A model generated the notes under the pieces. It was given only the letters and a program-made list of their open reading frames with translations. It had not been told where the DNA came from and did not search any database. A program made the translations under genes and the position numbers. From the NCBI GenBank assembly GCA_903872185.1, contig CAIQJL010000009.1:1-36653 (forward strand): DNA of 36,653 bases, given 5' to 3'. Shown here in pieces: positions 1-19,485 of this stretch. The stretch is from an uncultured Bacteroidota bacterium. Its GTDB lineage: Bacteria; Bacteroidota; Bacteroidia; Bacteroidales; GWA2-32-17. Numbering within the stretch: the stretch's first letter is position 1; every line of letters starts with the position of its first letter.

Positions 1-2698
1 ACCATATTCCTACCACTGGACTTCAGGTCAGACAACAGCTGCTGCAACAAATCTTACAACTGGTTGGCAGTATGTTACTGTAACCGATTATTGTAAATCA
101 AAAAAAGATTCTGTTTTAATAGGCAGTATGCCAATATTACAAACAAGTATTACCTCTTCAACGCCCGCTAATTGTATTGCAACTGCAAATGGTAGCGCAA
201 CAGTTACTGCAACAAATGGAGGTTCTCCATATACATATTTATGGACATCGGGTGAAGCCACAGCAACAGCCACAGCACTTGGTGCAGGCTGGAATTATGT
301 TACTGTAAGTGATGTTTGCTCAACAATAAAAAAAGATTCAGTAAATATTTCGGTACAATCAGCTTTAGTTGCAACTGTATCATTAACAGCACAAGCAAGC
401 TGTCCAACTTCAACAAATGGATCAGCTTCTGTTGCGATAACCTCAGGTGTTGCGCCTTTTAGTTATTTGTGGTCAACAACTGCAACAACACCTGCAATAA
501 GTAATTTGCCTGTAGGCTGGGTTTATGTAACAATTACTGATGGTTGTGGTCCAAAGAAAGATTCTGTTCAGGTAACAAATATGCCATTGGCTCAGATATC
601 GCTAAGTACAGAAAATATTTTACTTACTTGTGCAAGTGATTTTGGTACAGTAACTGTGTTAACTCAAAACGGTGTTGCACCATATAGTTATACCTGGAAT
701 GATTTAGGGGTTGTTGTAAGTCCAACACGAAATAATTTATCACCAGGGTGGTATTTTGTTACGGTTACTGATGTTTGTAACGTACCTTTTATTGATAGTG
801 TAAGAGTAAATAACTTACCAGAAGTTACAACTTCAATAACAGGTTCTGGTATTGCATCATGTTCAATAGGTGGTGATGGAATAGCAACAGTACAGGCAAT
901 TTCAGGTGTGCCACCATATAGTTATTTATGGTCAACCGGAAGTACAACAGCTACCGTTAACAATTTACTTACAGGATGGCAATATGTATCGGTAAGTGAT
1001 TTTTGTGTTACTCATGTAGATTCTGTTTTAATTGGCAGTATGCCACCTTTAGTAATTGACATTACCGATTCAACAACTGTAAGTTGTTTAGGCGGAACCA
1101 ATGGTACTGCAACAGTAACTGCAACAGAAGGTGGAGCACCATATTCATATTTATGGACATCAGGTGAAATTACCGCAACAGCAATTAATTTACAAGCTGG
1201 TTTGAACTTTGTTACAGTTACCGATGCCTGCGGAACCAAAAAAGATTCTGTAATAATAACTGTAAGTGCTCCAATGTCGATAGCTATTACTGGATCTTCA
1301 CCAACTTCATGCGCCGGTGGTAATAATGGAGGCGGGCAGGTTACAGCAACTAACGGATCGATACCCGTTACATATTTATGGTCAACAAATAATTTATTTT
1401 CCGATACTTTAAATGAAAATGCATTTGCAGGCAATTTAAATAATGCATGGAATTATATTAGAGTTACAGATTTCTGTACATCAATAATTGATTCGGTGCA
1501 AATTGGATTTTTACCTGTGTTAAGTGCAAGCATTACATTTAGCGTACCTGCTTCATGTGTTACAGTTGCTGATGGTAAAGCCAGTGTTACTGCAATAAAT
1601 GGTGCAGCACCTTATACTTATTTATGGAGTGATGTTGCAGCAACTACAGGTTTTGTTGCTTTAGATTTATTACCTGGCTGGAATTACGTAACTGTAACCG
1701 ATCAATGCGGAACAGCAGTTGATTCGGTAAATATGTCGAATTTACCAGCACTTTCAATAAGCACTACTTCAATAAGTTTAGTTTCATGTGCTGGTGGTAG
1801 TAATGGTTCTGCTGTTGTTACAACAACAAATGGGGTAGCTCCATTTACTTATCTCTGGAGTACTACAGAGGCTAATGATACAGCAATAACACTTATTACC
1901 GGTTGGAATTATGTTACCGTTACAGATATTTGTGGTTCTTTAAAAGATTCAATAAATGTAATGGTTGTACCAGTTGTTACTGCAATTTATGATAGATTAA
2001 ATGATATTTATTGTTTTGGTGATTCTACTGCAAGAATTGTAGTAGAACCAGTAAATGGTCTTGCTCCATATACCTATATTTGGGGCGATACTACTTTAAC
2101 CACTAATGATAGAACTGGATTAACTGCAGGTAAATATTTATTTACAGTAACCGATGGTTGTAATTCAACTTATGTTGATTCGATAGTTGTTGATCAGCCA
2201 GGAGCGTTGTCGCTTTCAATGATAACAACAAATGTTTCATTTACCGGATTATCTGATGGTGCAATAGATTTAATTATGTCTGGAGGTAACCAACCTTATT
2301 CTTATAACTGGTCTAATTCTGTTGTTTTCGAAGATCAGGCAGCTATTCCTGAAGGTGTTTATTACATTACTGTAACAGATAACAATGGTTGCTTAATTGT
2401 TGATAGTACAACAATAGTTACCGATTCATGGCATATCGAAATATATAAGTCCTTTACTCCAAATGGTGATGGTAAAAATGACGTATGGAATATTAAATAT
2501 ATTTCTGCCTACCCAAATTGTAGTGTAACTATTTTTAACGAATGGGGAATGCAGGTATTTGAATCTACCGGTTATGAGACTGCTTGGGATGGTACAAACA
2601 AAAGTGGAAATAAACTTCCTGCAGCAACATACTATTATATTATCGACTTAAAAGATGGGTCGAAGGTTTATACCGGTTACGTAACATTAGTTAAATAA
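1..2698 (+). CDS. SprB-like repeat adhesin, 5'-truncated, T9SS type B C-terminal domain
   Basis: The reading frame is open from base 2, so the true start lies outside the window. The visible ~899 residues hold one partial and ten complete SprB-type repeats of about 75 residues. Each follows the pattern Cys, NGxA, APYSYLW, then GWxYVTVTD and a DSV ending. Most repeats have TDxC with KDSV where the common SprB form has TDxNGC with an ITQP linker; only the last complete repeat (TDNNGC) looks canonical. The C-terminus (about 2430-2695) is a gliding-motility-associated CHU_C domain: SFTPNGDGKND, VTIFNEWGMQVFES, WDGT, then a basic end. This is the known T9SS type B sorting signal. The product is expected to be secreted through T9SS and held at the surface. 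The PorP/SprF gene starts 13 bp downstream, as in sprB-sprF pairs. Ligand and role in gliding or adhesion are unknown. Confidence 0.9.
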   Translation, partial: PYSYHWTSGQTTAAATNLTTGWQYVTVTDYCKSKKDSVLIGSMPILQTSITSSTPANCIATANGSATVTATNGGSPYTYLWTSGEATATATALGAGWNYVTVSDVCSTIKKDSVNISVQSALVATVSLTAQASCPTSTNGSASVAITSGVAPFSYLWSTTATTPAISNLPVGWVYVTITDGCGPKKDSVQVTNMPLAQISLSTENILLTCASDFGTVTVLTQNGVAPYSYTWNDLGVVVSPTRNNLSPGWYFVTVTDVCNVPFIDSVRVNNLPEVTTSITGSGIASCSIGGDGIATVQAISGVPPYSYLWSTGSTTATVNNLLTGWQYVSVSDFCVTHVDSVLIGSMPPLVIDITDSTTVSCLGGTNGTATVTATEGGAPYSYLWTSGEITATAINLQAGLNFVTVTDACGTKKDSVIITVSAPMSIAITGSSPTSCAGGNNGGGQVTATNGSIPVTYLWSTNNLFSDTLNENAFAGNLNNAWNYIRVTDFCTSIIDSVQIGFLPVLSASITFSVPASCVTVADGKASVTAINGAAPYTYLWSDVAATTGFVALDLLPGWNYVTVTDQCGTAVDSVNMSNLPALSISTTSISLVSCAGGSNGSAVVTTTNGVAPFTYLWSTTEANDTAITLITGWNYVTVTDICGSLKDSINVMVVPVVTAIYDRLNDIYCFGDSTARIVVEPVNGLAPYTYIWGDTTLTTNDRTGLTAGKYLFTVTDGCNSTYVDSIVVDQPGALSLSMITTNVSFTGLSDGAIDLIMSGGNQPYSYNWSNSVVFEDQAAIPEGVYYITVTDNNGCLIVDSTTIVTDSWHIEIYKSFTPNGDGKNDVWNIKYISAYPNCSVTIFNEWGMQVFESTGYETAWDGTNKSGNKLPAATYYYIIDLKDGSKVYTGYVTLVK

Positions 2699-2711: not shown

Positions 2712-3614
2712 ATGATTATGCAAAAGATATTTTTCACAATAGCAGTAATGGTTTTATTTCAGAGTGCATTTGCTCAGCAATTAACTTCTGTTAGCCAGTA
2801 CATGGAAAACAAATACGTATTTAATCCTGCAGCTGTAGGTACGTTGCCATATAGTCCTCTTGCTTTATCTTATAAAAGAATGTGGACCGGCGTAGATGAT
2901 GCTCCAACAAATCAGATGATAAGTTCGCATTTTCAGGCAGCAGATAACATGGGCATTGGTGGTAAAATTTTTAATTATTCAGCAGGTGCTATGTCGAAAA
3001 TGGGAATTGAAGGCACATATGCATATCAATTACCAATAGGAACAAGCGGTGCAAAATTATCGTTAGGTTTATCGGCTCAGCTGTATCAGTTTTATTTAAA
3101 TAAAAATAAATTAACATTAGAGCAACAAGATGATGACATAATGATGTTTGGTTCAGAAAAACTTATTTCACCTGATGCTGCTTTTGGTGCATATTATTAT
3201 ACCGATAAATATTTTGCAGGATTATCTGCTTATCAACTGTTCAATCGCAAGGTTGATTTGATGACAGACAACATTATAGAAAACAGACAGGTTAGACATT
3301 ACTTTTTAAGTGCAGGATATAATTTTGATATTAATTCTAACTTCTCTATTGAGCCATCATTTTTAGCTAAAGTAATTGAAGCTGGTATTGCTCAGATTGA
3401 TATTAATGCAAAAGTAATGTATAAACAAACTGTTTGGTTAGGCTTATCGTATAGAACAAAAGATGCAATTGTTGTAAACCTTGGTTTACGTAAAGATCGT
3501 TTTATCTTTGGTTATTCATTTGACTATTCAATTACTGATATAAAGAAATATAATGTAGGTTCGCACGAGTTATTCTTTATTGTTAAGTTTAACAGATCGA
3601 AACCAAAATTGTAG
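2712..3614 (+). CDS. PorP/SprF family T9SS-associated outer-membrane protein
   Basis: A 300-residue protein with an N-terminal signal peptide (hydrophobic run then AFAQQ). It has the family start QLTSVSQYMENKYVFNPAAVG, and the family's alternating beta-strand pattern follows to a C-terminal strand ending near FFIVKFNR. PorP/SprF proteins are predicted beta-barrels; SprF is needed for secretion or surface attachment of SprB in Flavobacterium johnsoniae. The gene lies 13 bp after the SprB-like gene, so co-transcription and a dedicated cargo partnership are likely (inference). A second ATG two codons downstream, at 2718, is an equally good start. The second paralogue in the window, at 12431-13438, is clearly diverged. 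Confidence 0.9.
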   Translation: MIMQKIFFTIAVMVLFQSAFAQQLTSVSQYMENKYVFNPAAVGTLPYSPLALSYKRMWTGVDDAPTNQMISSHFQAADNMGIGGKIFNYSAGAMSKMGIEGTYAYQLPIGTSGAKLSLGLSAQLYQFYLNKNKLTLEQQDDDIMMFGSEKLISPDAAFGAYYYTDKYFAGLSAYQLFNRKVDLMTDNIIENRQVRHYFLSAGYNFDINSNFSIEPSFLAKVIEAGIAQIDINAKVMYKQTVWLGLSYRTKDAIVVNLGLRKDRFIFGYSFDYSITDIKKYNVGSHELFFIVKFNRSKPKL

Positions 3615-3624
3615 AAGAAATAGC

Positions 3625-3662
3625 ACGCAGATAACGCAGATTTGGCGGATTAACGCGGATTT
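3625..3662. repeat. Four imperfect tandem 9-10-mers (ACGCAGATA type)
   Basis: Four consecutive units read acgcagata, acgcagattt, ggcggatta and acgcggattt, immediately after the PorP gene. They are non-coding in any convincing frame. Short G/C-containing units of this kind stand out in AT-rich intergenic DNA. I believe similar strings recur between genes in some Bacteroidota, but I cannot test that here. Confidence 0.6.
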
Positions 3663-3674
3663 AATATTAACGTC

Positions 3675-3696
3675 ATGGCGGGCTTCGACCCGCCAT
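3675..3696. repeat. GC-rich perfect hairpin (REP-like)
   Basis: An 8-bp perfect inverted repeat, atggcggg/cccgccat, encloses a six-base loop (cttcga). A ctccttttt tract follows on the + strand. It lies between the convergent PorP (+) and VOC (-) genes, so it could end transcription from the + side. Its G/C content is far above its surroundings, which also fits a dispersed REP-type palindrome. Confidence 0.6.
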
Positions 3697-3767
3697 CTCC
3701 TTTTTAGGTATAGTAGTTTCTGTCACACTTTGTTGGCACAAGTTTTAAGCAAGAGTCAAACAATCAT

Positions 3768-4187
3768 TTATTGCTCAATTAACTCTACAAGATGAGCATC
3801 TGGAGTATATAAAAAGATACATTTTTTTCCCTGAAAGGCTTCAGAATTAAAATATTCCAGAGCTTTATAATTTAATAGCTCTAATTTATTTACAGTAGCA
3901 ATTATATCGGTTACTTTGTAAGCAATATGATAGTAACTTATTCGTTTTTTTAAGAGTTTAAAAACAACCGATTCTTCGCCCATAGGTTCAACTAATTCTA
4001 TAAAAGTGCCATCAGAAACTTTAACAAAACACACTTTTACTTTTTGAGAATCTACTAAATAAACTTTTGAAATATTTTCTTTACTAAATAATTCAGAATA
4101 ATGAATTATAGAGCTTTCAATACTGTCAACCAACAAACCAACATGATGAAATGTTAGTTTAGTTAATTCTAGATTCTCACCTAACAT
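3768..4187 (-). CDS. VOC/glyoxalase-fold protein, methylmalonyl-CoA epimerase-like
   Basis: A 139-residue protein with two beta-alpha-beta-beta-beta modules of the vicinal oxygen chelate fold. Likely metal ligands sit at the expected places: H14/H15 in TFHHVGLLV, E64 in FIELVEP, H87 in YYHIAYKV, and E135 in HLVELIEQ. This layout resembles methylmalonyl-CoA epimerase and other small VOC enzymes that epimerise or isomerise an acyl thioester. It is the last gene of the FkbH-methyltransferase-ACP operon, 11 bp after the ACP gene. The substrate may therefore be an ACP-bound hydroxyacyl group rather than a CoA ester (inference). The true reaction is unknown; the family call is firm. Confidence 0.8.
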   Translation of the reverse strand: MLGENLELTKLTFHHVGLLVDSIESSIIHYSELFSKENISKVYLVDSQKVKVCFVKVSDGTFIELVEPMGEESVVFKLLKKRISYYHIAYKVTDIIATVNKLELLNYKALEYFNSEAFQGKKCIFLYTPDAHLVELIEQ

Positions 4188-4198
4188 AAATAATTTTG

Positions 4199-4441
4199 CT
4201 ATTTGTTTTTTGCAATAATTGTGTTTACCATTTCACCAACATTTTTCCAACCCTGAATTTCAGCAGTTGTAAAACGAATTTTGAATTTCTTTTCCATTGC
4301 AACAACAATTTGAATGTGTGTTAAAGAATCCCATTCATCAATATCATTAGCCGTTGTTTCGGTTGTAATAACTAAATTGTCAATGTCTAGAATATCAATA
4401 AAAATATCGTTAATTTGTTTTAAAACTTCAGTTTGCTCCAT
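4199..4441 (-). CDS. Acyl carrier protein (operon-specific)
   Basis: An 80-residue carrier protein with the phosphopantetheine site DEWDSL (serine 39) followed by the helix THIQIVVAMEKKFKIRF, typical of ACPs. Length is normal for the family. It is embedded between a methyltransferase and a VOC gene, downstream of an FkbH-like enzyme, and not with fatty-acid synthesis genes. That makes it a specialised carrier. In characterised FkbH systems the enzyme takes a glyceryl unit from 1,3-bisphosphoglycerate and loads it on a discrete ACP, so glyceryl-ACP formation is a reasonable prediction here. Spacings are 15 bp to the methyltransferase gene and 11 bp to the VOC gene. Confidence 0.9.
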   Translation of the reverse strand: MEQTEVLKQINDIFIDILDIDNLVITTETTANDIDEWDSLTHIQIVVAMEKKFKIRFTTAEIQGWKNVGEMVNTIIAKNK

Positions 4442-4456
4442 TATTATATTTGTTTT

Positions 4457-5365
4457 TTAATTTTTACTTTTCTTTAAAAAAGCACCATACATTATTGAAA
4501 TTTTATGTTTCTCTGCTTTTTCGGGTGATACATCTTCTGATAAAAAATATTTTTCTGAAGAAATTTCGAATCCTGATTGTGTAATAAGTTCCTGAATTTC
4601 TTTTACATTTCTAAAGAGAAAAATATGGTCGATTGCAGGCGCATTAGTGGGCGTTGTTATAAATACAGTTCCATCAACAGTTAATAAGCTATTTAATTTT
4701 AATAATAATTTTAATGGGTCCTCAACATGTTCTAGTACTTCGCCCATTGAAATAAAATCATAACAATTTTCTTTCTTAAAATCGAAAATATTTGACAAAT
4801 TAAAATTTATCCGGCTGTCTTCTATAAAGTTTTTTGCTAAATCAATAGAAGTCTGACTAATATCAACAACAGAAAAAACAGTGTTTTTATCAAGAATTTC
4901 TAAAGCTTTTGAAAGATATAAACCATGACCAGCACCAATTTCCAGGTAATTAGTCACTTTATCAGAATATTTAGGCAAAGTGTTAATATAGTAATCATAA
5001 ATCTGATAATGGTGTTTCCATAAAAATTGCGATAACAACAAGCCATGCATGTAATACTCCATTGTTTCAGGATTTGCATAAACTCTTTTGTTAACCTCGT
5101 CAAAAGTACTGCTTGTGTATTTATCTGTATAAATAAATTCAATAGTTTCTGTTGTTACATCTGCAATCATTTTCAAGTAACAATCAATGGCGTAATCAAT
5201 AGTTTTGTTATTCGTTTTTAAATACTTATTATACTTAAGCATAAAATTATTAGCTCTTTCGTAGTATAAGTCGTCGAACTCGGCAATGTTTTTTTTAAGT
5301 TTTTTTGCATGAAGAGGACTTAAAACTTCTATTTTATTATAAATATCGTTTATGAAATTACTCAT
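4457..5365 (-). CDS. Class I SAM-dependent methyltransferase
   Basis: A 302-residue protein. The SAM-binding motif I is NYLEIGAGHG (residues 139-148), with the acidic strand-2 residue in VVDIS (167-170). Motif EVLEHVEDP (209-217) is typical of methyltransferases of the Ubi/Coq type. About 135 residues precede the catalytic fold; they are mostly helical, and I do not recognise them. The start codon overlaps the stop of the FkbH-like gene by 4 bp (ATGA), which implies translational coupling. By context it may O- or C-methylate the acyl unit carried by the ACP. Methoxymalonyl-ACP pathways also combine an FkbH enzyme, an ACP and a methyltransferase, but the two dehydrogenases of that pathway are absent here. 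Substrate not determined. Confidence 0.85.
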   Translation of the reverse strand: MSNFINDIYNKIEVLSPLHAKKLKKNIAEFDDLYYERANNFMLKYNKYLKTNNKTIDYAIDCYLKMIADVTTETIEFIYTDKYTSSTFDEVNKRVYANPETMEYYMHGLLLSQFLWKHHYQIYDYYINTLPKYSDKVTNYLEIGAGHGLYLSKALEILDKNTVFSVVDISQTSIDLAKNFIEDSRINFNLSNIFDFKKENCYDFISMGEVLEHVEDPLKLLLKLNSLLTVDGTVFITTPTNAPAIDHIFLFRNVKEIQELITQSGFEISSEKYFLSEDVSPEKAEKHKISIMYGAFLKKSKN

Positions 5366-7086
5366 TTTTTTATTTTGATAAAGTTCGTTTTTTCTTTAAC
5401 ATCATTTGTGTCTAAAATCCAGTAATTTTTTTTTGCTGAAAACCCTAAATTTAAATAATGATCTTGAACAATTACATTTTTAACTGTTGGAATATATTCT
5501 CCAATAATAGTTTTAAAACCATTCTCCCTTGCGGTTTTAACAATTTGATTTAAAACAAAATTTTCCATTCCTCTTTTTAACACTCTGCAACTCATAAACC
5601 AGGTATCAATAAAAACGCTATTTTCATTTTCCTTTTTTAAAATAACAGAGCAAATTAAACCATTATCGCCAAATTTATCTTCCAGAGTAAAGGCAAAGGT
5701 AAAATATTTATCAGAAATTGAAATAGATTCAATATCAGATTCGGTGTAGCGTACAGTTCTTAAATTAAATTGATTAGAACGTTGCGAAAGCTGAGCTATT
5801 CTTGGGATATTAAATTTATTAAAGGGTTCAACTACCGAAAACATATTTAAACTTTTTAAAAAGTCATCCTCATTTGTAAACGCTTTTTGTAAAACTACGC
5901 GTTTAGCTTCCACCTGGTATAGTTTTGTTCTTTCTGCATCTTCATTTGAGAAAGAAACTGTTTCGAATAAATTTTGTGTATATAAAAATTCCAAATATTC
6001 AGCAGGATCCTCGGGTAACTCGGGAACAGTGATATCTAAAATATTTTCTTTTACTATATTTCTTTCAAATGGGTTATCGTCCAAAAATACCATTGAATCG
6101 AAACCAATATTTAAAATACTTTGTATTTGCCTTATGTTATCAGCTTTGTTTTCCCAATTTGCCATAAATACAGCAATATCATCAAGCCTCAGTACCATAT
6201 CAGGGTGCTTTTCAAACGGCTCTTTTGCAATCGATTCGGTATTTTTACTGCAAACACAAAGTATTATTCCACGGTTTTTAAGTTTCTTAATCCAATATTG
6301 AAATTCGGTAAATGCTTTTCCTATTCCAAGACTTCCTAATTGAATATTTTCTATACCATCGTCGCCAATTACTCCACCCCAAAGAGTATTATCTAAATCA
6401 AGAATTAAACATTTTTTAAATTTACCGTAAATAGATGCAATTAAATCAACAGTTATAGCAGAAATATTAGGTAGCACATCAATACTTAAAACCATTTCGG
6501 TTGAAACATAAACAGAACTCATAAAGAAATTGCTCTTTCCTACCTGGTTTTGAATTGACGAGATATCGCATAAGTAAAAATTTGAATTATTTGATGCAAA
6601 TAACATTAAATCGTAATTTAATTTACGAAGCTGAAAAAGAAATGACGACTCGGTTTTATTAGCATAATTACCGAACACAGCATCGTTTATTTCAGAATAG
6701 TTATAGTAAATTATTTTTGCGTTTAAATTAGTGCTAATTGTTACATTAATATTTTCAATTAGTTCGAGCTGATTCTTTGCAAGATTTTTATATTCGGAAG
6801 GGCTTAATTTGTTATACTTTAAAAGTAATTTATGTGAAGATTGAAAAATAATAACTACTTCCGGTTTATATTCATAAAGCTCCGAGGTTTGGTCGAAAAC
6901 CTGACGTTCTATTTGGTTAAAATCTGCTTCCAAAATTTGAAAATCAAAACCATAATTATAACCGGTTCCACGAATTGCTTCAGAAAGAAACTGAGTGGAA
7001 GTATCTCCTAACAAAGCAACTTTAATGGATTTAAGATTCGAAAAATCTTTTTTTAAGTTCTTTTTTAATTGTGAGAAGGATATCAT
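5362..7086 (-). CDS. FkbH-like HAD-IIIC enzyme (putative glyceryl-ACP synthase)
   Basis: A 574-residue protein with full FkbH architecture. An N-terminal SGNH-like region (about 20-215) leads into a HAD domain with the nucleophile motif DLDNT (D230, D232). The HAD domain also has CSKN (279-282), K314 and the acidic motif FLDDNPFER (about 334-342). A GNAT-like C-terminal region (about 420-560) contains SQRSNQFNLRT and DTWFMSCRVLKRG. Characterised members bind 1,3-bisphosphoglycerate, remove the phosphate and transfer the glyceryl group to an ACP thiol. All HAD catalytic residues are present, so activity is expected. It is first in the operon, followed by the methyltransferase (4-bp overlap), ACP and VOC genes. 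The exact acyl product is inferred from the family. Confidence 0.88.
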   Translation of the reverse strand: MISFSQLKKNLKKDFSNLKSIKVALLGDTSTQFLSEAIRGTGYNYGFDFQILEADFNQIERQVFDQTSELYEYKPEVVIIFQSSHKLLLKYNKLSPSEYKNLAKNQLELIENINVTISTNLNAKIIYYNYSEINDAVFGNYANKTESSFLFQLRKLNYDLMLFASNNSNFYLCDISSIQNQVGKSNFFMSSVYVSTEMVLSIDVLPNISAITVDLIASIYGKFKKCLILDLDNTLWGGVIGDDGIENIQLGSLGIGKAFTEFQYWIKKLKNRGIILCVCSKNTESIAKEPFEKHPDMVLRLDDIAVFMANWENKADNIRQIQSILNIGFDSMVFLDDNPFERNIVKENILDITVPELPEDPAEYLEFLYTQNLFETVSFSNEDAERTKLYQVEAKRVVLQKAFTNEDDFLKSLNMFSVVEPFNKFNIPRIAQLSQRSNQFNLRTVRYTESDIESISISDKYFTFAFTLEDKFGDNGLICSVILKKENENSVFIDTWFMSCRVLKRGMENFVLNQIVKTARENGFKTIIGEYIPTVKNVIVQDHYLNLGFSAKKNYWILDTNDVKEKTNFIKIKK

Positions 7087-7197
7087 TTTATAAATTCTCT
7101 AAAACTCTTTTTTCCAATTAGATTTAAGAAACTTTTTTGAATTAATTAAAATTTTCAATTTTCTTAATTTTATCACAGAATTATAATTAATAAAACA

Positions 7198-7292
7198 CCC
7201 AAAACCCTGTCATCTTGAGGCACTCGAAAGATATGCCCGCGCTCTTGCACATTCTTCGAGAACCTCAGAATGACCCTGTTAAGTATTTTGGG
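7198..7292. repeat. Long imperfect palindromic intergenic element
   Basis: Outer arms cccaaaa (7198-7204) and ttttggg (7286-7292) enclose a second imperfect inverted repeat at 7209-7274. In that repeat gtcatcttgaggcactcgaa pairs with ttctcgaag, cctcag and atgac on the far side. The centre is GC-rich (gcccgcgctcttgcac). It lies between the MBOAT/SGNH pair and the FkbH operon, all on the minus strand. It looks like a dispersed REP/MITE-like palindrome, and it may also attenuate read-through between the two groups. Confidence 0.6.
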
Positions 7293-7345
7293 ATGATATT
7301 TAATCTCATTATATTTTGTATATTAATAAAAATTCAAAACAGTTT

Positions 7346-8314
7346 CTAAAGTTCAACAATTTTTTTCAATGAATCATTAAGCATTAAACTAAATTTATCA
7401 GCACCTTTTGGATTAAAATGTGTATAATCTACATAATCATCTAAAGTAAACTTAGTATATTTTCCAAAATTCACATAAAACACTGATTTATTATCAGCTT
7501 TCGATTTAAAAAGATTGTCGAAATACCTTACGGTAGAATCATTAAAACTATTAATCTCTAAATCCCGCATTGGCATATTTACCAAAATCAGTTTTATTTT
7601 ATTCTCTTTAGCAAAAGATAGAATATTTTCAAAGTACTTCATTTGAACAGGTAATATATTTGAATCGTATGATTTTTTATCGTTTGGACTTGCTTTTGTG
7701 ATAGGCTTAACAATATACTGACCATTTTCTTTAAGATATGATTTTTCTGAATCTGGAGTTTTGATAATTAACGATTTTATACCAAGAATAAAATATGGAA
7801 AAGTATTAGTAATGTTAAGTGTAACGTATTCACTTAGTTTATTTTCAGTAGGTTTAAAAGAATACCAAGGAAGAGAATCTTTTTTAATTTCAAAATCTTT
7901 TTGGTATTCTTTATCAAAAAACTTATTAAAAGCATAGTTTCTGGAGTCTGTTAAAAAAGAAAACTGAAGATAACTAACTCCGACTATTGCATATTTACAT
8001 TTTAGTGCATTATGTTCTTTCAGGTATTTTAATTTGTAATACATTTGATTAAAAGCATCGTTATCATGAGAAAAGTTGAAAGAAGAAATTGCTTTAATAT
8101 TTTCGGGATTTACACCTCTGTAAAACTTTGAGCTTCCTAGTATTAATAAATCATATTTTAGCTTTGTTGCATTAGTAAAGCTTTGGGCTATCTGTTGTTC
8201 GGTTGAAATGCCCATTATCCTTGTAACAATGTCCGTAATATTTAAAATATATAGCAATACTATTCCTGAAATAAGGATGCCAAATAGTAATATTTTAAAG
8301 AATAGTTTCTTCAT
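7346..8314 (-). CDS. Membrane-anchored SGNH-like protein, MBOAT partner
   Basis: A 322-residue protein with one N-terminal membrane segment (about 5-27) and an extracytoplasmic domain. LLILGSSKFYRG (block I, GSS at 60-62) and DYTHFNPKG (D296, H299) are the catalytic blocks of the SGNH hydrolase/acyltransferase fold. The start abuts the MBOAT stop with no gap, so the two are co-translated. AlgI-AlgJ/X and DltB-DltD pairs have the same logic. The MBOAT protein passes an acyl group across the membrane and the SGNH partner places it on a cell-surface polymer. The acceptor here is unknown. Overall similarity to AlgJ or DltD is not evident, so only the general role is proposed. Confidence 0.8.
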   Translation of the reverse strand: MKKLFFKILLFGILISGIVLLYILNITDIVTRIMGISTEQQIAQSFTNATKLKYDLLILGSSKFYRGVNPENIKAISSFNFSHDNDAFNQMYYKLKYLKEHNALKCKYAIVGVSYLQFSFLTDSRNYAFNKFFDKEYQKDFEIKKDSLPWYSFKPTENKLSEYVTLNITNTFPYFILGIKSLIIKTPDSEKSYLKENGQYIVKPITKASPNDKKSYDSNILPVQMKYFENILSFAKENKIKLILVNMPMRDLEINSFNDSTVRYFDNLFKSKADNKSVFYVNFGKYTKFTLDDYVDYTHFNPKGADKFSLMLNDSLKKIVEL

Positions 8315-9745
8315 TTAAAACTGAAAATAAATAAAACTCTTACTACCAAATTTACCTAGAAAAACAATTAGCAAAGCTAAAGTAATATATGCACTCCATC
8401 TGATAACAACATGCCTTTTTTTCAAAAACTCAACCGGACTTTGTTTTGATTGCATTAATTGAACTGCTTCCATTATTAATATAGAGCAAATAATTATTGC
8501 ATAATCAATTCTTTTTAGACCAACAACTTCCGGATCGAATCCTTTAAAATTGAAAATGTTAGTAATAATATAAACCGCATCAGAGACTGAATGTGCTCTA
8601 AAAAATATAAATGTAAAATTCACAAAACTAAATGTAAGTATTACGCTTATAGCATTAAAAATAATAGGTGGAATCTTTTTTGCTAGCCGTTTTCTGCGCT
8701 TAGCCAGAAGTAATTCTATACATATCATTACACCATTTAATACTCCAAGAATAATAAAATTCCAGCCAGCTCCATGCCAAAGTCCGCTTATTGTAAAAGT
8801 TATTAGTAATGCAATAATTATAGCTATTGTACCATGATTTCTATATTTTATTGCAATGGGTTCATATAAATAATCTCTCAGCCATGATGAAAGAGAAATA
8901 TGCCACCTTGTCCAAAATTCAGAAACTGTTTTTGACTGGTAAGGCAAATTAAAATTCTTCATTAAATTAAAACCTAAAATTCGCGCTGTACCAATTGCAA
9001 TATCTGAGTATCCCGAAAAATCGCAATAAACCTGAAATGCAAAAAACACTGTAGCTAGTAAAAGAGGAAAACCTGAATACATATGCGGTTCAGAATAAAC
9101 AGAGCCAACATAAACTGCTAATCTATCTGCAATAACCATTTTTTTAAAAGCTCCCCATAAAACAAGCTTTAATCCTGAAGTAATTCTTTCGTAATCAAAT
9201 TCTTTTTTTGTTCGAAATTGCCATAAAAGATTTTGAGGTCGCTCAATTGGACCCGCAACCAACTGAGGAAAAAACATAACATAGAGCGAATAAATCCCAA
9301 AATGTTTCTCAGCTTTTTGTCGACCGTAATAAATTTCCATTGTATAACTCATTGCCTGAAAAGTATGGAAAGACAATCCTACAGGTAACAATATTGATAA
9401 ATATGGTATTGGATTCTGAAAACCTGCACCGTGCAAGAGTGAAGTTAAGTTTTCGTTAAAGAAATTATAATATTTAAAAACAGACAGAACCCCAATATTT
9501 GCAATTAAACTAACGATTAAAAAAAGTCTCCGTCTTTTTCCCTTAGCATTTTCAATTAAAATTCCTGCAAAATAATCAACAACTATAGTAAAGCCAAGAA
9601 TAAGAATGTAAACAGGAACAAAAACCATGTAGAAATAACAACTGCTTGCTAGAAGTAACATCCACCTATATTTATGGGGAGATGCAAAATAAATTATTGC
9701 AATAATTATAAAGAAAAATAGAAAATGAAAAGAATTAAACAACAT
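8315..9745 (-). CDS. MBOAT family O-acyltransferase (AlgI/DltB-like)
   Basis: A 476-residue polytopic membrane protein. It shows the MBOAT signature FWTRWHISLSSWLRDYLY (histidine 282) and the invariant catalytic histidine in SGLWHGAGWNF (H324). It also has LPVGLSFHTFQAMSY and the FPQLVAGPIERP loop, characteristic of the AlgI branch. Length matches AlgI (about 470-520). AlgI-type proteins move acetyl or other acyl groups to exported polysaccharides, while DltB uses D-alanyl-carrier protein as donor. The nearby FkbH operon encodes its own acyl carrier protein. A carrier-protein donor is therefore plausible but unproven. The SGNH gene follows directly. Confidence 0.92.
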   Translation of the reverse strand: MLFNSFHFLFFFIIIAIIYFASPHKYRWMLLLASSCYFYMVFVPVYILILGFTIVVDYFAGILIENAKGKRRRLFLIVSLIANIGVLSVFKYYNFFNENLTSLLHGAGFQNPIPYLSILLPVGLSFHTFQAMSYTMEIYYGRQKAEKHFGIYSLYVMFFPQLVAGPIERPQNLLWQFRTKKEFDYERITSGLKLVLWGAFKKMVIADRLAVYVGSVYSEPHMYSGFPLLLATVFFAFQVYCDFSGYSDIAIGTARILGFNLMKNFNLPYQSKTVSEFWTRWHISLSSWLRDYLYEPIAIKYRNHGTIAIIIALLITFTISGLWHGAGWNFIILGVLNGVMICIELLLAKRRKRLAKKIPPIIFNAISVILTFSFVNFTFIFFRAHSVSDAVYIITNIFNFKGFDPEVVGLKRIDYAIIICSILIMEAVQLMQSKQSPVEFLKKRHVVIRWSAYITLALLIVFLGKFGSKSFIYFQF

Positions 9746-12430: not shown

Positions 12431-13438
12431 TTAAAATTTCGGACAAGGAATAATTTTCGTTCGGTGGTGCTTTGGTTTTTTTGGATTGATAAATTGATAA
12501 TTTAAAGAGATTTCATGTGAACCACCCGAGGCCATTGTAAGTATAGATATTGTAATATCATAACTATATCCAATAATCAAATCTTTATAAATGCCTCCAA
12601 CCATTATTGCAAGTGCATCATGATTTGAATAACCCTTTTTATATGCCTTTAATCCAGGAAGTCCTCTGTACCAAACGCCCACAAATATATAAGGTCTTTT
12701 ATAATAAACTCCTAAATCTGCTTGATCAAATTCTTTTTGAAAACGATATTGAAAAGCAACAGTAATAGATGGTTTTTCGTTTTTGCGACCTTCGCCTCCC
12801 TGTGCATTTAGTGGAAAATTATAGCCACCATGAACAGAGCCTTTTATCGGTAACGGAGCACTTTTACTTAAAAAAGATTCATTTGGCCGGTTTATATGGT
12901 CTAATGTTACACCAATCCATTGTTTTTGCGAGAACAATAAAGCTCCAGTTGCAAAATCCATGTAATTAATCTTATCAGGCGTTGGTGTTTGAATTGAAGT
13001 TGATGCTCCTCTTGAAATCTGGTCACCAAAAACTAACCGATTAAAATCTAAAGAACGGTAACCATATGTTGCTCTAATTCCAAGCGATGCAGACCATACT
13101 CTTGTAAACTTATAATCATAAGCATAATTTAATCCAACTGTATTATTTCCTAAACCAGCCGAGCCGGCTTTATCACTTGTTAACATTATACCTACACCAC
13201 TTCTGAAATTACTTAAATAATAATCGTAAGAAAGCAGGAATGAATTAAATGCACCGGGTAAAGCAGCCCATTGATTTCTGTAAGTTGTTGCTAAACGAGA
13301 ATCTGCATTTGCTCCGGCAAAAGCAGGATTTAAATAAATAGGAGCAGCATAAAACTGAGTTAACTGTATATCCTGAGCTATAGTTACAGAAAACTGTAAT
13401 CCTAAAAAAATTAATAATATGAAAAACTTTATTTTCAT
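12431..13438 (-). CDS. PorP/SprF family T9SS-associated outer-membrane protein (second copy)
   Basis: A 335-residue protein with signal peptide (ending VTIAQ) and the family signature DIQLTQFYAAPIYLNPAFAGA. RLATTYRNQWAALPGAF and a long beta-rich barrel region follow. The final strand is SLNYQF, with a short basic tail (KKPKHHRTK) after it. Its start overlaps the stop of the 2016-residue SprB-like gene by 4 bp (ATGA), so translation is coupled. It is the probable outer-membrane partner needed to export or hold that protein, as SprF does for SprB. It belongs to a more canonical branch than the copy at 2712-3614. Confidence 0.93.
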   Translation of the reverse strand: MKIKFFILLIFLGLQFSVTIAQDIQLTQFYAAPIYLNPAFAGANADSRLATTYRNQWAALPGAFNSFLLSYDYYLSNFRSGVGIMLTSDKAGSAGLGNNTVGLNYAYDYKFTRVWSASLGIRATYGYRSLDFNRLVFGDQISRGASTSIQTPTPDKINYMDFATGALLFSQKQWIGVTLDHINRPNESFLSKSAPLPIKGSVHGGYNFPLNAQGGEGRKNEKPSITVAFQYRFQKEFDQADLGVYYKRPYIFVGVWYRGLPGLKAYKKGYSNHDALAIMVGGIYKDLIIGYSYDITISILTMASGGSHEISLNYQFINPKKPKHHRTKIIPCPKF

Positions 13439-16400
13439 CTTAATAATAATATATCACCTACTTTATCTGCTTTTCTTCCATCAATAAATGTTGCAGAGGC
13501 TTTATAAACATATACATCTTCCTGACAAAGTTGTCCTCTGTAATATCCATCCCAACCAATATTTATATCATTTGTTTCAAAAATTAATTCGCCCCATCTA
13601 TTAAATATAAGCATTTTAAATGCAGTAATACCAGTAGCAAAAGGAAAGAAAACATAATTTAATAAATCGGTTGGATTATAAACTCCTCCCGAGGAATGAT
13701 TTTGATCTGGAGTAAAAGCATTTGGGAAAATAATATCGCCTGTTGCATTTACAGAAATAGATGCAGAGTCGGTACAACCGTATGTGTTAACTGTTACTAA
13801 AGTAATATTATATTGCCCTAAATTCATGTAATTATGTATTGGATTTATTTGTACAGATGTATTTCCATCGCCAAAATTCCAAAGATAACCAACTCCACCT
13901 GTTGAAGTATTGGTGCAGATTACAGGATCGTTTGGAAGATATAAAGTTGTTGCATTTACTGTAAATGAAGCCGAAGGATTTGGGAAAACATATACAGGTA
14001 ATGGATAAGTGGCAGAACTTGACACACAACCTCCTTGTGTTACTAGGTCTAATGAAACATAAAATGTATCTGCTGTTGCAAATGTATGTGTAGGATGTTG
14101 CAGGGTAGACGAAGTTCCATCACTAAAGTACCATGTCCATGAATTTATGTCATCAAATGTTGTAAAAGAGCTGTCTGTAAAATTAATTGTTAACGGCATA
14201 CAGCCTTGTGTTGCATCTGCATTAAAGTAAATGGTTGGTGGTGGTGCAAAATATAAATGCACTGAATCAATTACTGTGAATCCACAAGTATTTGTTACAG
14301 TTATTATGTATGTTGTTTCTTCTGAAGGTGCATCAATAAATGGTCCTTCACCTGGTCCTAATCCATTATTCCATGTATATGTTAAAGTGTCAAACATTCC
14401 AACTGTTGAAGTTGAATAAATGGTTGTTTGTGTGCCTGCACATACCGGAGAATTAACAAGAATGTCAACATCTTGTGGAAATAATGTTTTTACATATACA
14501 CTAATCGTATCTCCAACACCGGGACAACCATTTTGATCATAGGCATTAACTATGTATGTTGTTTCACCTGTTGGAGAAACAGTTTTTATATTTCCTAACC
14601 CAAGTCCATGATTCCAATAATATAAATAATTACCAGCACCACCTGAAGCGATTGCAGTTAAAGTTGTTGTTTCTCCTAAACAAATTACATTTTGGCCGGC
14701 AACAATAGCACTTACTTGAGTTGGATTATTTATTATAACGTTAGCAGATGAAGAACATCCATTGTTGTCGGAAACTGTTGCCGTATAAGAGCCTGATGAC
14801 AGCCCTGTTGCTGTTTGTCCGTTTTGTTGTGGTGTTGTGCCCCATAAAATATTATATGGCGGAGTACCGCCTGTAGCGCCTGTTGTAGCAATTCCATTTG
14901 AGCCATTATGACAAGAAACATCTACATGAGAAACTACAACAGCAGTTAAAGCTGTTGGCTCAGAAATAATTATTGTAGTTGAGGTTGTACATCCATTTGC
15001 ATCAGTAATTGAAACAGTATAATTTCCTGCATAAATATCTATTACGCTTAATGTAGTTTGGGCAGGTATTGTATTCCAATTATAATCATATGGCGGGGTT
15101 CCTCCTGATACATTAGCAGAAGCAGCACCGGTATTTGTGCCATAACAATTAACAGCTAAATCTTCATTTGCAATTACATATAATGGTTGTGGTTGAGTTA
15201 AAGAAATATTTGCTGAAATCTGACAACCGTTTATATCTGTAACAGAAATAGTATATGTTCCAGCTATTAAATTTGATGCATTTGCAGTAAACTGACTTGC
15301 AGGAACCCAGACATAAGAATAAGGTGAAGTTCCGCCTAAAGCCAGTGCAGTTGCAAAACCATCTGCTAAGCCATAACATGAAATATTTTGTGAGGTCAAA
15401 TTGACACTTAAACCTTGCAATGGGGCGTGAATTACTACAGAAGAGGTGTCAAAACAACCTCTTGAATCTGTCACCGTAACAAAGTAAATGTTTTCATTTA
15501 GACCAGTAATTCCAGGAGAGTTACTTCCTGTTGACCAATGATAAGTATATATAGGAACACCACCACTTACAGATGCCAAAGCATTACCATCGCTACCACC
15601 GTAACAACTTACATCTGAAAAGTTAGTAATTGAAATATCAACTGGTGAAGGTTGTGAAATTATTACAGGAACAAAGCTCTGACAAGAATGTTGGTCTGTA
15701 ACTGTTACATAATAAATTCCTGCTTGAAGATTAGTTGCAGTATCATTTGTGCCGCCAATAGGCGACCAATTATAATTATAAGGAGGTGTTCCACCTGCTG
15801 CTAAAACCCATGCAAATCCATCATTGCCATTATAACATTGCGGATTTGTAAAACCAGATAATATTGATAAATAAGAAGGCTGAGATAAAAATATAGTAGC
15901 ACTTCCTGAGCAACCTTTAGAATCTGTAACATAAACAGTATGAGTTCCTGCAGACAATCCAGATGCAGTTTGTGAAGTTGCTCCGCCGGGCGACCATGAA
16001 AAATTATAAGGTGGGGTTCCTCCGGAAACAGTTGCTGTTGCGGAACCATCATAACCACCAAAGCAGCTAATATTTTGAAATGTGTTAATTGAAACATTTA
16101 AAGGGTTAGGTTCAACAAATGTTACAAAATAAAAATCCTGACAATTATGAGCATCTGTTACAGTTACCTGATAAATAGCAGGAGATAATCCTGTAAGGTT
16201 TGGAATTGTTGGTCCATTTGACCACAAATATGTGTACGGGGCTGTTCCTCCGTTTACTGTTAAGTTTACCGAGCCATTATTTGCACCAGTACAAGTAATA
16301 TTAATTTGATTAGAAGATATAGAAATTGCTGGTGGCTGAGTTATTTCGGGATTTGTTACTGCGATTCCTTGGCAACCATTTGCGTCATTTACAAGAACTA

Positions 16401-19400
16401 CAAAAATTCCAGCGCCCAGACCAGTTCCTGTTGCAGTATTTCCACCATATGGCGACCAGGAATAACTATATGGAGCTAGACCACCACTTACATTTACTGT
16501 TGCAGTTCCGTTATGTCCACCAAAACATGATACATTTTGAATGGCAGCCATTGCTACAATTGGTCCTGAAATATCATTTAATGCTACATTTGCAACCTGA
16601 CTACAACCAGAAAAATCGGTTACTGTAACACTATACAATCCAGAAGAAATATTATTAATAGTGGAAGTTGTTACAGCTCCTGGTTGCCAAAAGTAAGAGA
16701 ATGGTGGAGTTCCTCCAATTGGCGCTACAGTTGCTGTCCCATTTGAAGCACCACATGTAGATTGCGTAGTACTGGTTGACAAAAGTATTCCTCCCGGCTG
16801 AGTAATGTTAATTGAATTAGTTAATGAACATCCATTGGCGTCAGAAATTGTAACGAAAAATGTTCCAGCACCAATATTTGATAATGTTTGAGAAATACTT
16901 CCCGAGGGTTGCCATATATAATTATATGGAGCTGTACCTCCTATTGTGTTAGCTGTTATGCTACCTGTTTGTCCACCAAAACAACTAACATTTGACTGAG
17001 AGAAGGTTGAACTTAATGATGATGAAGGTTGTGATACAAAAACATTTAATTGTGAAACACATAAATTGGCATCTGTTATAGAAACAATATAATTACCAGC
17101 TGGAAGTCCAGTTGCAATAGGTGAATTGCCACCCGTAGGAAGCCATTGATAATTGTAGCCTGGTGTTCCTCCATTTACAGAAATACTTGCCGCTCCATTA
17201 TTTCCGCTAAAACATAAAACGTTTGAAACATTATTTAACATTATACTTAATGGAGGAGGTTGAACAATACTTGCTATTGTTGTTTGCTGACAGCCCTTAT
17301 TGTCGGTTACTGTTATTGTATAATTTCCTGCTAAAAGGCCATTAGCATTTGCAGTATTTCCTCCACTAGGTGACCAGGAATACATATATGTTGGAGTTCC
17401 ACCAGAAACAACAACAGATGCAGATCCATTATTTCCACCATAACATGAAACATTGGATGTTGTCAAATTTATTAACAAAACATTTGGTTGCGTAATAACA
17501 ATAGATGTGTTTGCCTGACAACCATTATTATCTGTTACTGTCACCAAATATGTGCCAGCAGAAAGTCCAGATGCAGTTTGTGATGTGCCCGCTCCAGATG
17601 ACCAATAATAATTATATCCAGGTGTTCCTCCGGTTGCTAGTATAGTAGCAGAACCATTACTTCCACCAGCACAAAAAACATTAACGGAATTATTAATTAC
17701 TGCAGTTAATAAAACCGGTGTTCCAACTGTAGATGAGACAACAACAGTGCAACCTTTAGCATCTGTAACTGTTACAGAATAATTTCCTGCAGTTAATCCT
17801 GTTGCACTTAAACCATTATAACCATTTGACCATAGATATGAATATCCAGGAGTTCCGCCAAATGCAGAAACCACTAAATTCCCATTAGATAAACCAAAAC
17901 AAGTAACATTTGTTACAGAAATAACTGCTGAAAGTGGCTGTGGCTGAGTAATTGTAACTGTTGATATTTTAGTACATCCATTTCCATTTGTTACGGTTAC
18001 CGAATAAGTCCCAATCGAAAGACCATTTGCTGTTTGACCTGTTTGCTGAGGTGAAGTATTCCAAAGATAAGTATATGGAGGAACACCTGTTGTTACATTA
18101 ACAGTAGCACTTCCATTACTCCAGCCATAACAACCTACATTATTTGCCGAAATGGTTAGATTTGCTGTAAAAGAGACAAAATGCACTACAACATTATCAG
18201 TATCTGCCGGACAGGTTCCATTTCCTGTTGTTGTTAAAGTTAGAATAACTGTTCCCGAAATAATTTCTGAAGGAGTTGGTGTGTAGGTACAATTAAGAGA
18301 TGTGTTAGATGGTAAAAAACTACCGCTTCCACCAGACCATATTCCTCCAGATGCAGCAGTTACTGTTCCTGATAAATTTACAATTGAATTTGTGTTGCAT
18401 AATATTTGGTTAGATCCTCCATTTGCAGTTACCGCAACAGGATAGGATGTAATAATAACTGTGGCAGAAACAGGCGCACAGCCTGAAGCATCATTTACTA
18501 ATAAAGTATATGTTCCTGCACCACCGGTAATACTTTGTGTAGTTGCGCCGGTATTCCATAAATAAGTATATGGAGGTGTTCCACCCGATGGAACACCTGT
18601 GATTATTGTGTTAGCTTGTCCAAAACATAATGTAGGATTTGTAGGAGTAATTGTTGCGGTTAATAATGGATGTATTAAAACATAAATGGAATCAGTTCCA
18701 GTATAAATACCATCAGATAAATGAACGACATACCACCCATTTTGTGTTGGGGCAAATGAAGGTGGGTGGTAATTATTATATGTAAATCCACCAGGACCCG
18801 TCCACCATACATTAGAGCTCTGAGGGCATGTTATAACAACGTTATCAATTCCCCAATGGTCGTAATTATTTCCGGATGTGTTAGATTGATACCATCTGAA
18901 TTGAATATTGTTACCTGCAACAGGAACATTTGCACAGTGATTATGCCAGGTAGTAAGATTTGGATCATTTCCACCATTTGGAGACCAATATTGAATATCC
19001 GTCCAAGTTGTTCCTCCGTTATTTGACCATTGTAAATGAACTCCTTCTGTAGGTAAATCCGGTCCTTCGCAAGGAGAATTAACACCTTGCACAGAATATA
19101 TCATATCAAAACAAATTGTACAGGAAGTAGTTACTGTAAATGGTAAAGTAACTAATTCTCTCGGAAAATTAGAAGCTGGTCCTATCCATAAACAAGTTGA
19201 ACCATCAGGACCAGGAACACATGGATTGTTAAACATTGGAGATGCATTGGTTGACCAACCTGCTCCAATTGAACCATTATTAAAATTGTTATTCATTAAA
19301 AAATCATCACAATTGCCCCATGAATGTAATTTAACATGTTCACCGTTGCAAATATAAACGGTATCAGCAATCTGGTTATCTGCTGTTGCTAAGATATTAC

Positions 19401-19485
19401 ACTGTGAAAAAGAATTAAAAGAATATCCAACAAAATTAAGTGTTGTTGTACAAATCAATATAATATTGAAAAAAAACTTTTTCAC
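13435..19485 (-). CDS. Giant SprB-like repeat adhesin with reelin-like insert, PKD domains and T9SS type B tail
   Basis: A 2016-residue secreted protein. The signal peptide ends near residue 27 (SFSQC). Residues about 60-220 resemble a reelin/MAM-type jelly roll (HLQWSNNGGTTWTDIQYW, IQFRWYQSNTSG, DHWGIDNVVI). They seem to sit inside an Ig-like domain that resumes at VWWTGPGGF. One further repeat and a distinct beta domain lead to 15 consecutive SprB repeats (about 435-1590). The repeat consensus is SCFGGNNGSATV, GGTPPYNYLWS, AGTYTVTVTDANGC, ITQP. Two Ig-like and two PKD domains (WTWYFSDGTSS and YLWNFGDGNTS) precede the CHU_C tail (about 1918-2016; FPNAFTPD, IFNRWGELIFET). It is expected to be a cell-surface filament used in gliding or adhesion. 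It is the middle gene of a three-gene operon. Confidence 0.93.
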   Translation of the reverse strand: MKKFFFNIILICTTTLNFVGYSFNSFSQCNILATADNQIADTVYICNGEHVKLHSWGNCDDFLMNNNFNNGSIGAGWSTNASPMFNNPCVPGPDGSTCLWIGPASNFPRELVTLPFTVTTSCTICFDMIYSVQGVNSPCEGPDLPTEGVHLQWSNNGGTTWTDIQYWSPNGGNDPNLTTWHNHCANVPVAGNNIQFRWYQSNTSGNNYDHWGIDNVVITCPQSSNVWWTGPGGFTYNNYHPPSFAPTQNGWYVVHLSDGIYTGTDSIYVLIHPLLTATITPTNPTLCFGQANTIITGVPSGGTPPYTYLWNTGATTQSITGGAGTYTLLVNDASGCAPVSATVIITSYPVAVTANGGSNQILCNTNSIVNLSGTVTAASGGIWSGGSGSFLPSNTSLNCTYTPTPSEIISGTVILTLTTTGNGTCPADTDNVVVHFVSFTANLTISANNVGCYGWSNGSATVNVTTGVPPYTYLWNTSPQQTGQTANGLSIGTYSVTVTNGNGCTKISTVTITQPQPLSAVISVTNVTCFGLSNGNLVVSAFGGTPGYSYLWSNGYNGLSATGLTAGNYSVTVTDAKGCTVVVSSTVGTPVLLTAVINNSVNVFCAGGSNGSATILATGGTPGYNYYWSSGAGTSQTASGLSAGTYLVTVTDNNGCQANTSIVITQPNVLLINLTTSNVSCYGGNNGSASVVVSGGTPTYMYSWSPSGGNTANANGLLAGNYTITVTDNKGCQQTTIASIVQPPPLSIMLNNVSNVLCFSGNNGAASISVNGGTPGYNYQWLPTGGNSPIATGLPAGNYIVSITDANLCVSQLNVFVSQPSSSLSSTFSQSNVSCFGGQTGSITANTIGGTAPYNYIWQPSGSISQTLSNIGAGTFFVTISDANGCSLTNSINITQPGGILLSTSTTQSTCGASNGTATVAPIGGTPPFSYFWQPGAVTTSTINNISSGLYSVTVTDFSGCSQVANVALNDISGPIVAMAAIQNVSCFGGHNGTATVNVSGGLAPYSYSWSPYGGNTATGTGLGAGIFVVLVNDANGCQGIAVTNPEITQPPAISISSNQINITCTGANNGSVNLTVNGGTAPYTYLWSNGPTIPNLTGLSPAIYQVTVTDAHNCQDFYFVTFVEPNPLNVSINTFQNISCFGGYDGSATATVSGGTPPYNFSWSPGGATSQTASGLSAGTHTVYVTDSKGCSGSATIFLSQPSYLSILSGFTNPQCYNGNDGFAWVLAAGGTPPYNYNWSPIGGTNDTATNLQAGIYYVTVTDQHSCQSFVPVIISQPSPVDISITNFSDVSCYGGSDGNALASVSGGVPIYTYHWSTGSNSPGITGLNENIYFVTVTDSRGCFDTSSVVIHAPLQGLSVNLTSQNISCYGLADGFATALALGGTSPYSYVWVPASQFTANASNLIAGTYTISVTDINGCQISANISLTQPQPLYVIANEDLAVNCYGTNTGAASANVSGGTPPYDYNWNTIPAQTTLSVIDIYAGNYTVSITDANGCTTSTTIIISEPTALTAVVVSHVDVSCHNGSNGIATTGATGGTPPYNILWGTTPQQNGQTATGLSSGSYTATVSDNNGCSSSANVIINNPTQVSAIVAGQNVICLGETTTLTAIASGGAGNYLYYWNHGLGLGNIKTVSPTGETTYIVNAYDQNGCPGVGDTISVYVKTLFPQDVDILVNSPVCAGTQTTIYSTSTVGMFDTLTYTWNNGLGPGEGPFIDAPSEETTYIITVTNTCGFTVIDSVHLYFAPPPTIYFNADATQGCMPLTINFTDSSFTTFDDINSWTWYFSDGTSSTLQHPTHTFATADTFYVSLDLVTQGGCVSSSATYPLPVYVFPNPSASFTVNATTLYLPNDPVICTNTSTGGVGYLWNFGDGNTSVQINPIHNYMNLGQYNITLVTVNTYGCTDSASISVNATGDIIFPNAFTPDQNHSSGGVYNPTDLLNYVFFPFATGITAFKMLIFNRWGELIFETNDINIGWDGYYRGQLCQEDVYVYKASATFIDGRKADKVGDILLLR

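Follow-up and report, generated by a model that had tools for sequence, protein, structure and literature searches.

A candidate carrier-protein-dependent surface acylation cassette that joins FkbH and MBOAT/SGNH genes in a Bacteroidota genome

The window analyzed here is contig CAIQJL010000009.1 of an uncultured Bacteroidota bacterium, one complete contig of 36,653 bp from a genome of 4.3 Mb in 407 contigs. It contains an operon of six genes that probably encodes a carrier-protein-dependent pathway for the acylation of an exported acceptor. The operon joins an FkbH-type loading enzyme, an S-adenosylmethionine (SAM)-dependent methyltransferase (MT), an acyl carrier protein (ACP), and a VOC metalloenzyme to an MBOAT O-acyltransferase and its SGNH partner. 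Each of the six open reading frames is complete and lies on the minus strand, at the coordinates originally predicted. The features are given below in the order of transcription (MBOAT, SGNH, gap, FkbH, MT, ACP, VOC).

8315..9745, minus strand: MBOAT O-acyltransferase, 476 aa, transcribed first in the operon (PF03062, 94.8 bits; cut-off, 27).
8318..8335, minus strand: C-terminal acyl-shuttle motif FIYFQF of the MBOAT, residues 471-476, with Tyr473.
7346..8314, minus strand: membrane-anchored SGNH-fold protein, a DltD/PatB-like partner, 322 aa (from its residues and an AlphaFold model).
7345-7087: gap between the SGNH and FkbH genes, 259 bp.
7128..7346, no strand: repeat between the SGNH and FkbH genes resembling a miniature inverted-repeat transposable element (MITE), 219 bp (from genomic copies and terminal inverted repeats).
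5362..7086, minus strand: FkbH-type HAD-IIIC glyceryl transferase/phosphatase, 574 aa (FkbH_N and TIGR01686 over their cut-offs).
4457..5365, minus strand: class I SAM-dependent MT, 302 aa (Methyltransf_23, 56.6 bits against 27).
4199..4441, minus strand: stand-alone ACP, 80 aa (PF00550 PP-binding, 28.9 bits against 20.8).
3768..4187, minus strand: VOC metalloenzyme, kin to methylmalonyl-CoA epimerase and glyoxalase I, 139 aa (Glyoxalase_4, 45.1 bits against 27).

The Pfam and NCBIfam scores bear out the families originally predicted for FkbH, MT, ACP, VOC, and MBOAT. No Pfam family matches the SGNH protein, and its assignment held up on conserved catalytic residues and a predicted SGNH fold. 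The description of four overlapping genes is right for FkbH and MT, which overlap by 4 bp (ATGA), and not for the others; spacers of 15 bp and 11 bp separate MT from ACP and ACP from VOC.

FkbH would take D-glycerate from 1,3-bisphosphoglycerate, strip the phosphate, and attach glyceryl to the dedicated ACP through a thioester bond. The MT may O-methylate this group to give O-methylglyceryl-ACP, and the VOC enzyme would work at C2, most likely as an epimerase. The MBOAT would move the acyl group from the ACP to its own Tyr473 at the outer face of the membrane. The Ser of the anchored SGNH protein would receive it there and pass it to an acceptor at the cell surface, which is probably a glycan. 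The proposal that acyl-ACP is the donor for the MBOAT rests on genetic linkage.

The linkage was surveyed in 58 public loci retrieved by search with the window FkbH. They are mostly from Bacteroidota, with one Myxococcota and one Pseudomonadota metagenome-assembled genome (MAG), and they are not independent samples, as some come from close species and all were found by similarity to this FkbH. An MBOAT gene lies within 6 kb of FkbH in 45 of them, and in 39 of the 47 in which both flanks reach at least 2.4 kb. Rare linkage in related genomes had been named as grounds for rejecting the original prediction, and the linkage is not rare. Within the same distance, ACP genes are present in 55 loci, SGNH genes (by profile) in 38, MaoC-like genes in 23, short-chain dehydrogenase/reductase (SDR) genes in 22, MT genes in 18, VOC genes in 14, and ketoacyl-ACP synthase III (KAS III) genes in 3. 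The MBOAT genes are close by and almost always on the strand of FkbH, commonly right after the ACP or tailoring genes. The minimal loci contain only FkbH-ACP-MBOAT-SGNH (L077, L079, L088, and L095).

The comparison set was an even draw of 148 genomes from the phylum, of which 11, the window's genome included, contain an FkbH over the cut-off. None of the other 10 FkbH loci (one with a cut flank) has an MBOAT gene nearby. The linkage is therefore a property of one FkbH subfamily (61 rows, 49 MBOAT linked), and the window FkbH falls inside it. Common residence in glycan clusters is a poor explanation of the link, because no GT2/GT4-type glycosyltransferase was detected in 27 of 50 FkbH-MBOAT loci, some of them shortened by contig ends. 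Some of the phylum-wide FkbH genes are in glycosyltransferase-rich loci and yet have no MBOAT nearby. The window operon stands alone, with no glycosyltransferase near it. An ACP beside an MBOAT is not a general trait either; it was found within about 1.5 kb in only 2 of 30 MBOAT loci without FkbH linkage (L017 and L032).

The MBOAT contains the features of an MBOAT/SGNH system: the MBOAT domain, the catalytic His, a C-terminal FxYxxF motif, and an adjacent SGNH gene. Its closest solved relative, by sequence and by fold, is DltB. His324 and Tyr473 are invariant in a 38-row alignment, and the motif Tyr is kept in all 63 full-length homologues (exact FxYxxF in 61). The model (pLDDT, 90) contains two helices between the MBOAT core and the motif.

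The SGNH protein contains an N-terminal hydrophobic membrane helix (residues 2-34), invariant Ser62 and His299, and Asp296 in DYTH. Foldseek matched its AlphaFold model to DltD (6pfx) first and to PatB (7trr) among the next matches. The model aligns to DltD with a Z score of 14.0 and a root-mean-square deviation of 4.3 over 235 residues, and general SGNH hydrolases score equal to DltD against it in VIA-align. The fold, the Ser...Asp-x-x-His residues, and the N-terminal anchor are those of a DltD/PatB-type partner. With the acyl-shuttle Tyr and the SGNH catalytic residues, the pair is thus equipped for surface transfer. The predicted role in surface acylation stands to this extent; the transfer and its acceptor are putative.

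Several observations weigh against a single pathway in the window, and they are given here with the two explanations that they favor. The MBOAT/SGNH genes are upstream of FkbH in the window and downstream of it in most relatives. The MBOAT tree contains a 29-row clade (support, 100) with members only beside FkbH. The window MBOAT is outside this clade; it belongs to another clade of 14 rows (support, 98), of which 11 are linked to FkbH and 3 are not. Its best matches (58% and 57%) are from genomes G011 and G015, in which no FkbH was found. A near homologue in G003 is sited away from FkbH, and a locus from the same genus as the window (L053) contains FkbH-MT-ACP-VOC and no MBOAT. The donor used by PatA is acetyl-CoA, and acyl-CoA donors are inferred for other MBOAT/SGNH systems (PMC12148441). 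The gap and its repeat also part the two halves.

These points would suit two separate units side by side. One would be an acetyl-CoA-fed MBOAT/SGNH O-acetylation system (PatA/PatB or AlgI like), and the other an FkbH-MT-ACP-VOC set with its product used elsewhere. We consider this unlikely. The window FkbH is within a strongly MBOAT-linked subfamily, the window MBOAT clade includes FkbH-adjacent members (among them L067, L077, L109, and L122), and the genome, which contains three MBOATs, has no FkbH other than this one. In Ferruginibacter loci, FkbH-ACP is followed by two tandem MBOAT/SGNH pairs, and the closest kin of the window MBOAT is in the second. Because the window MBOAT is in a mixed clade, its coupling to FkbH is less certain than that of a typical family member, and the case for the ACP-to-MBOAT pathway is stronger for the family as a whole than for this window.

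The gap also bears on the two-unit arrangement. Its length of 259 bp was predicted correctly, and the palindrome reported in it is the 219-bp MITE-like repeat (7128-7346), which makes up most of the gap. The ends of the element are inverted repeats of the GAAACTGTTTTGAATT type. The genome contains at least 20 related sequences, and two of these, 87-96% identical to the element, span most of its length. The element contributes the final base of the SGNH stop codon and has TTA on both flanks. When the element and one TTA are removed in silico, the SGNH stop TAA is kept and about 35-40 bp are left before the FkbH start. It appears to have been inserted into a former six-gene unit, which argues against two units. 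No empty insertion site was found for it, and a different palindromic sequence occupies the same gap in L067, which has the gene order of the window. With such a sequence between the halves in both loci, the MBOAT/SGNH half and the FkbH half could be separate transcripts.

The last point against the surface pathway comes from a Bacteroidales MAG. In this MAG (L092, 3580-21721), FkbH-ACP-VOC is between a nonribosomal peptide synthetase (NRPS) of 2,119 aa and an NRPS/polyketide synthase (PKS) protein of 2,410 aa that is clipped by the stretch end. The loading set is apparently used there for a small molecule. FkbH proteins classically serve in the assembly of polyketides and peptides (PMC7489565, PMC8949500), and the acyl-ACP of the window might likewise be a building block for a polyketide, peptide, or glycolipid, with the MBOAT/SGNH pair tailoring it or unrelated. 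We regard this as quite improbable, since genes of the ketosynthase, condensation, and adenylation types are missing around the window operon and most relatives link a membrane acyltransferase and an SGNH partner. As originally predicted, neither ketosynthases nor dehydrogenases are present among the operon genes or the scanned flanking genes. The two dehydrogenases that convert glyceryl to hydroxymalonyl in the methoxymalonyl-ACP route are among those absent, and the exclusion of a standard methoxymalonyl-polyketide route was sound.

The acyl group of the proposed surface pathway can be judged from the four genes of the loading half. The window FkbH scores 298.2 bits against TIGR01686 (cut-off, 146.65) and 241 bits against FkbH_N (cut-off, 27), as expected of an FkbH protein. 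The HAD Asp residues D230 and D232 and the Cys C500 are at least 97% conserved in 67 relatives. The source of the glyceryl that FkbH proteins load is 1,3-bisphosphoglycerate (PMC7489565, PMC8949500), and by family the window FkbH would place it on the ACP. The ACP contains the phosphopantetheine Ser39 in EWDSL, and W37-D38-S39 is conserved in 65 relatives. The MT contains a SAM motif conserved in 19 relatives. In L122, one open frame runs through MT and ACP; this is not proof that the MT acts on the ACP, as a lost stop codon or an assembly error looks identical. Modules of O-methyltransferase (OMT), FkbH, and peptidyl carrier protein (PCP) are described as producing O-methylglycerate (PMC10143770), and they are the best guide to the FkbH-MT-ACP chemistry here.

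The VOC protein contains H15, Q48, E64, H87, and E135, which are invariant in 17 sequences. H15, E64, H87, and E135, which we take to be the metal ligands, fit the H/(Q,E)/H/E pattern of a VOC metalloenzyme. Its profile matches are solved glyoxalase and methylmalonyl-CoA epimerase structures. It is not assigned as a methylmalonyl-CoA epimerase, as it scores 54.9 bits against TIGR03081 (cut-off, 114.95), and it has Q48/E64 where that enzyme presumably has Glu/Gln. Its most likely activity is epimerization of the ACP-bound group at C2.

The same VOC score and Q48/E64 pair, together with an MT family that has no match assigning it to a known substrate, would fit a pathway that carries another acyl group. 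The MT and VOC enzymes may not make O-methylglyceryl (for instance, the MT may act on a different substrate), or the acid that FkbH loads may be a different one. We hold this to be possible but doubtful. The catalytic residues of FkbH are conserved, the MT is within the cassette, and MT and ACP share one open frame in L122.

Among known systems, the six-gene cassette would work most like the donor side of Dlt joined to an export side of the PatA/PatB type. The Dlt pathway (DltA-DltB-DltC-DltD-DltX, teichoic acid D-alanylation) also has a carrier donor, a DltB-type MBOAT, a DltD-type SGNH protein, and an FxYxxF relay. The cassette differs in having FkbH in the place of DltA, a shuttle fused to the MBOAT, and a Gram-negative host. 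It is not a Dlt system, as no AMP-binding (DltA) gene or DltX was seen in the operon and the MBOAT scores 169.7 against TIGR04091 (DltB; cut-off, 375). The Tyr of the FxYxxF motif is auto-acetylated in PatA and feeds PatB, and the motif is on DltX in Dlt (PMC12148441). PatA/PatB peptidoglycan O-acetylation and AlgI-type systems share the MBOAT with a fused C-terminal shuttle motif and the separate SGNH protein. These systems are held to use acyl-CoA without a carrier protein (PMC12148441), whereas the cassette has an ACP and a loader.

The methoxymalonyl-ACP and tetronate pathways share FkbH, ACP, and a methyltransferase (PMC7489565), but the window operon has no dehydrogenase, FabH-like, or PKS genes. 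The OMT-FkbH-PCP modules of suomilide and varlaxin share a carrier-bound methylated glycerate made without dehydrogenases (PMC10143770). They are peptide synthetase domains with a small-peptide product, whereas surface decoration is proposed for the cassette. Di-O-methylglyceric acid is present on the pseudaminic acid of Campylobacter flagellin, a methylated glyceric acid on a surface sugar that is consistent with the proposed product, and no MBOAT linkage is reported for it in the passage on this acid (PMC3958885).

The tailoring genes found between FkbH and MBOAT in related cassettes come in interchangeable sets, MT and/or VOC or MaoC and SDR. None of the 15 VOC loci contains MaoC (Fisher P = 0.0004), MT and VOC tend to co-occur (P = 0.03), and KAS III (L084, L108, and L118) is never found alongside MBOAT (P = 0.001); these P values ignore the kinship of the loci. 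In the second set, MaoC and SDR could dehydrate glyceryl and then reduce the resulting pyruvyl, which would give a lactyl-type group. This proposal is from chemistry. The FkbH-dehydratase-ketoreductase set of the bryostatin type reportedly offers a lactyl precedent, for which we found no literature passage.

L068, L074, L076, and L090 have common flanking genes. L068 contains MT-ACP-MaoC-SDR as its middle genes, and L074 contains ACP-MT-VOC. The two are 87% identical in FkbH and 88% in MBOAT, with 54% in MT and 68% in ACP. As the middle genes are exchanged among related loci, the cassette appears to be a modular means of altering acyl decoration. Loci with no MBOAT often contain another acyltransferase after the ACP or tailoring genes, such as AT3 in L099, HGSNAT_cat in L113, a hexapeptide transferase in L124, and a GNAT/FemAB protein in L054. 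L055 is likewise named among the loci with KAS III substitution. The swap of acyltransferase families at the MBOAT position argues that what the ACP carries is destined for acyl transfer.

We are evenly divided on a broader reading, in which a modular class of surface acylation systems is widespread in Bacteroidota. It would consist of an FkbH-loaded carrier, exchangeable tailoring enzymes, and membrane acyltransferases, and would be a second carrier-dependent MBOAT/SGNH lineage besides Dlt. Glyceryl, O-methylglyceryl, or lactyl-type groups derived from glycolysis would be swapped by cassette exchange. The cassettes suggest a Gram-negative exception in which a carrier is the donor and the acyl shuttle is built into the MBOAT. 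They would connect a loading enzyme of the polyketide type with decoration of the cell surface and would offer a route from glycolysis to unusual glycan acyl groups. Exchange of tailoring genes in one locus would give variation in surface chemistry a simple explanation. No description of the FkbH and MBOAT/SGNH combination was found in the literature searched, in which coverage of subscription journals is incomplete.

Other loci from the survey contain related arrangements. A contig from a Myxococcota-labelled MAG (L104, 9973-16452) contains FkbH-ACP-MaoC-radical SAM/B12-MBOAT, and a gene downstream occupies the position of SGNH. Its FkbH is 62% identical to that of the window, and the cassette is likely a horizontal transfer or a binning error. 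A Beijerinckiaceae contig (L113) contains a gene for the HGSNAT-type membrane acyltransferase after FkbH-ACP, so the loading pair is not confined to Bacteroidota. L058 (8098-11754) contains a radical SAM gene with a BATS (biotin/thiamin synthesis) domain, ACP, MBOAT, and SGNH tightly packed without FkbH, which suggests another carrier-fed MBOAT system with another acyl source. L051, L052, L093, and L100 contain a divergent MBOAT beside one or two B12-radical SAM genes and a protein of about 1,100 aa. In L100, this protein has an AlgX-type SGNH domain.

The window operon is flanked by a divergent Mg-chelatase-family gene on one side and a convergent porP/sprF gene on the other. The window also encodes two repeat-rich proteins, one of 2,016 aa (13435-19485, minus strand) and one of 856 aa (128-2698, plus strand). 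Their ends resemble those of proteins secreted by the gliding-associated type IX secretion system. A PorP/SprF gene adjoins each of them (12431-13438 and 2712-3614). The region downstream of the VOC gene (3640-3768) contains short sequences, such as GGCGGGTCGAAGCCCGCC, that resemble further repeats.

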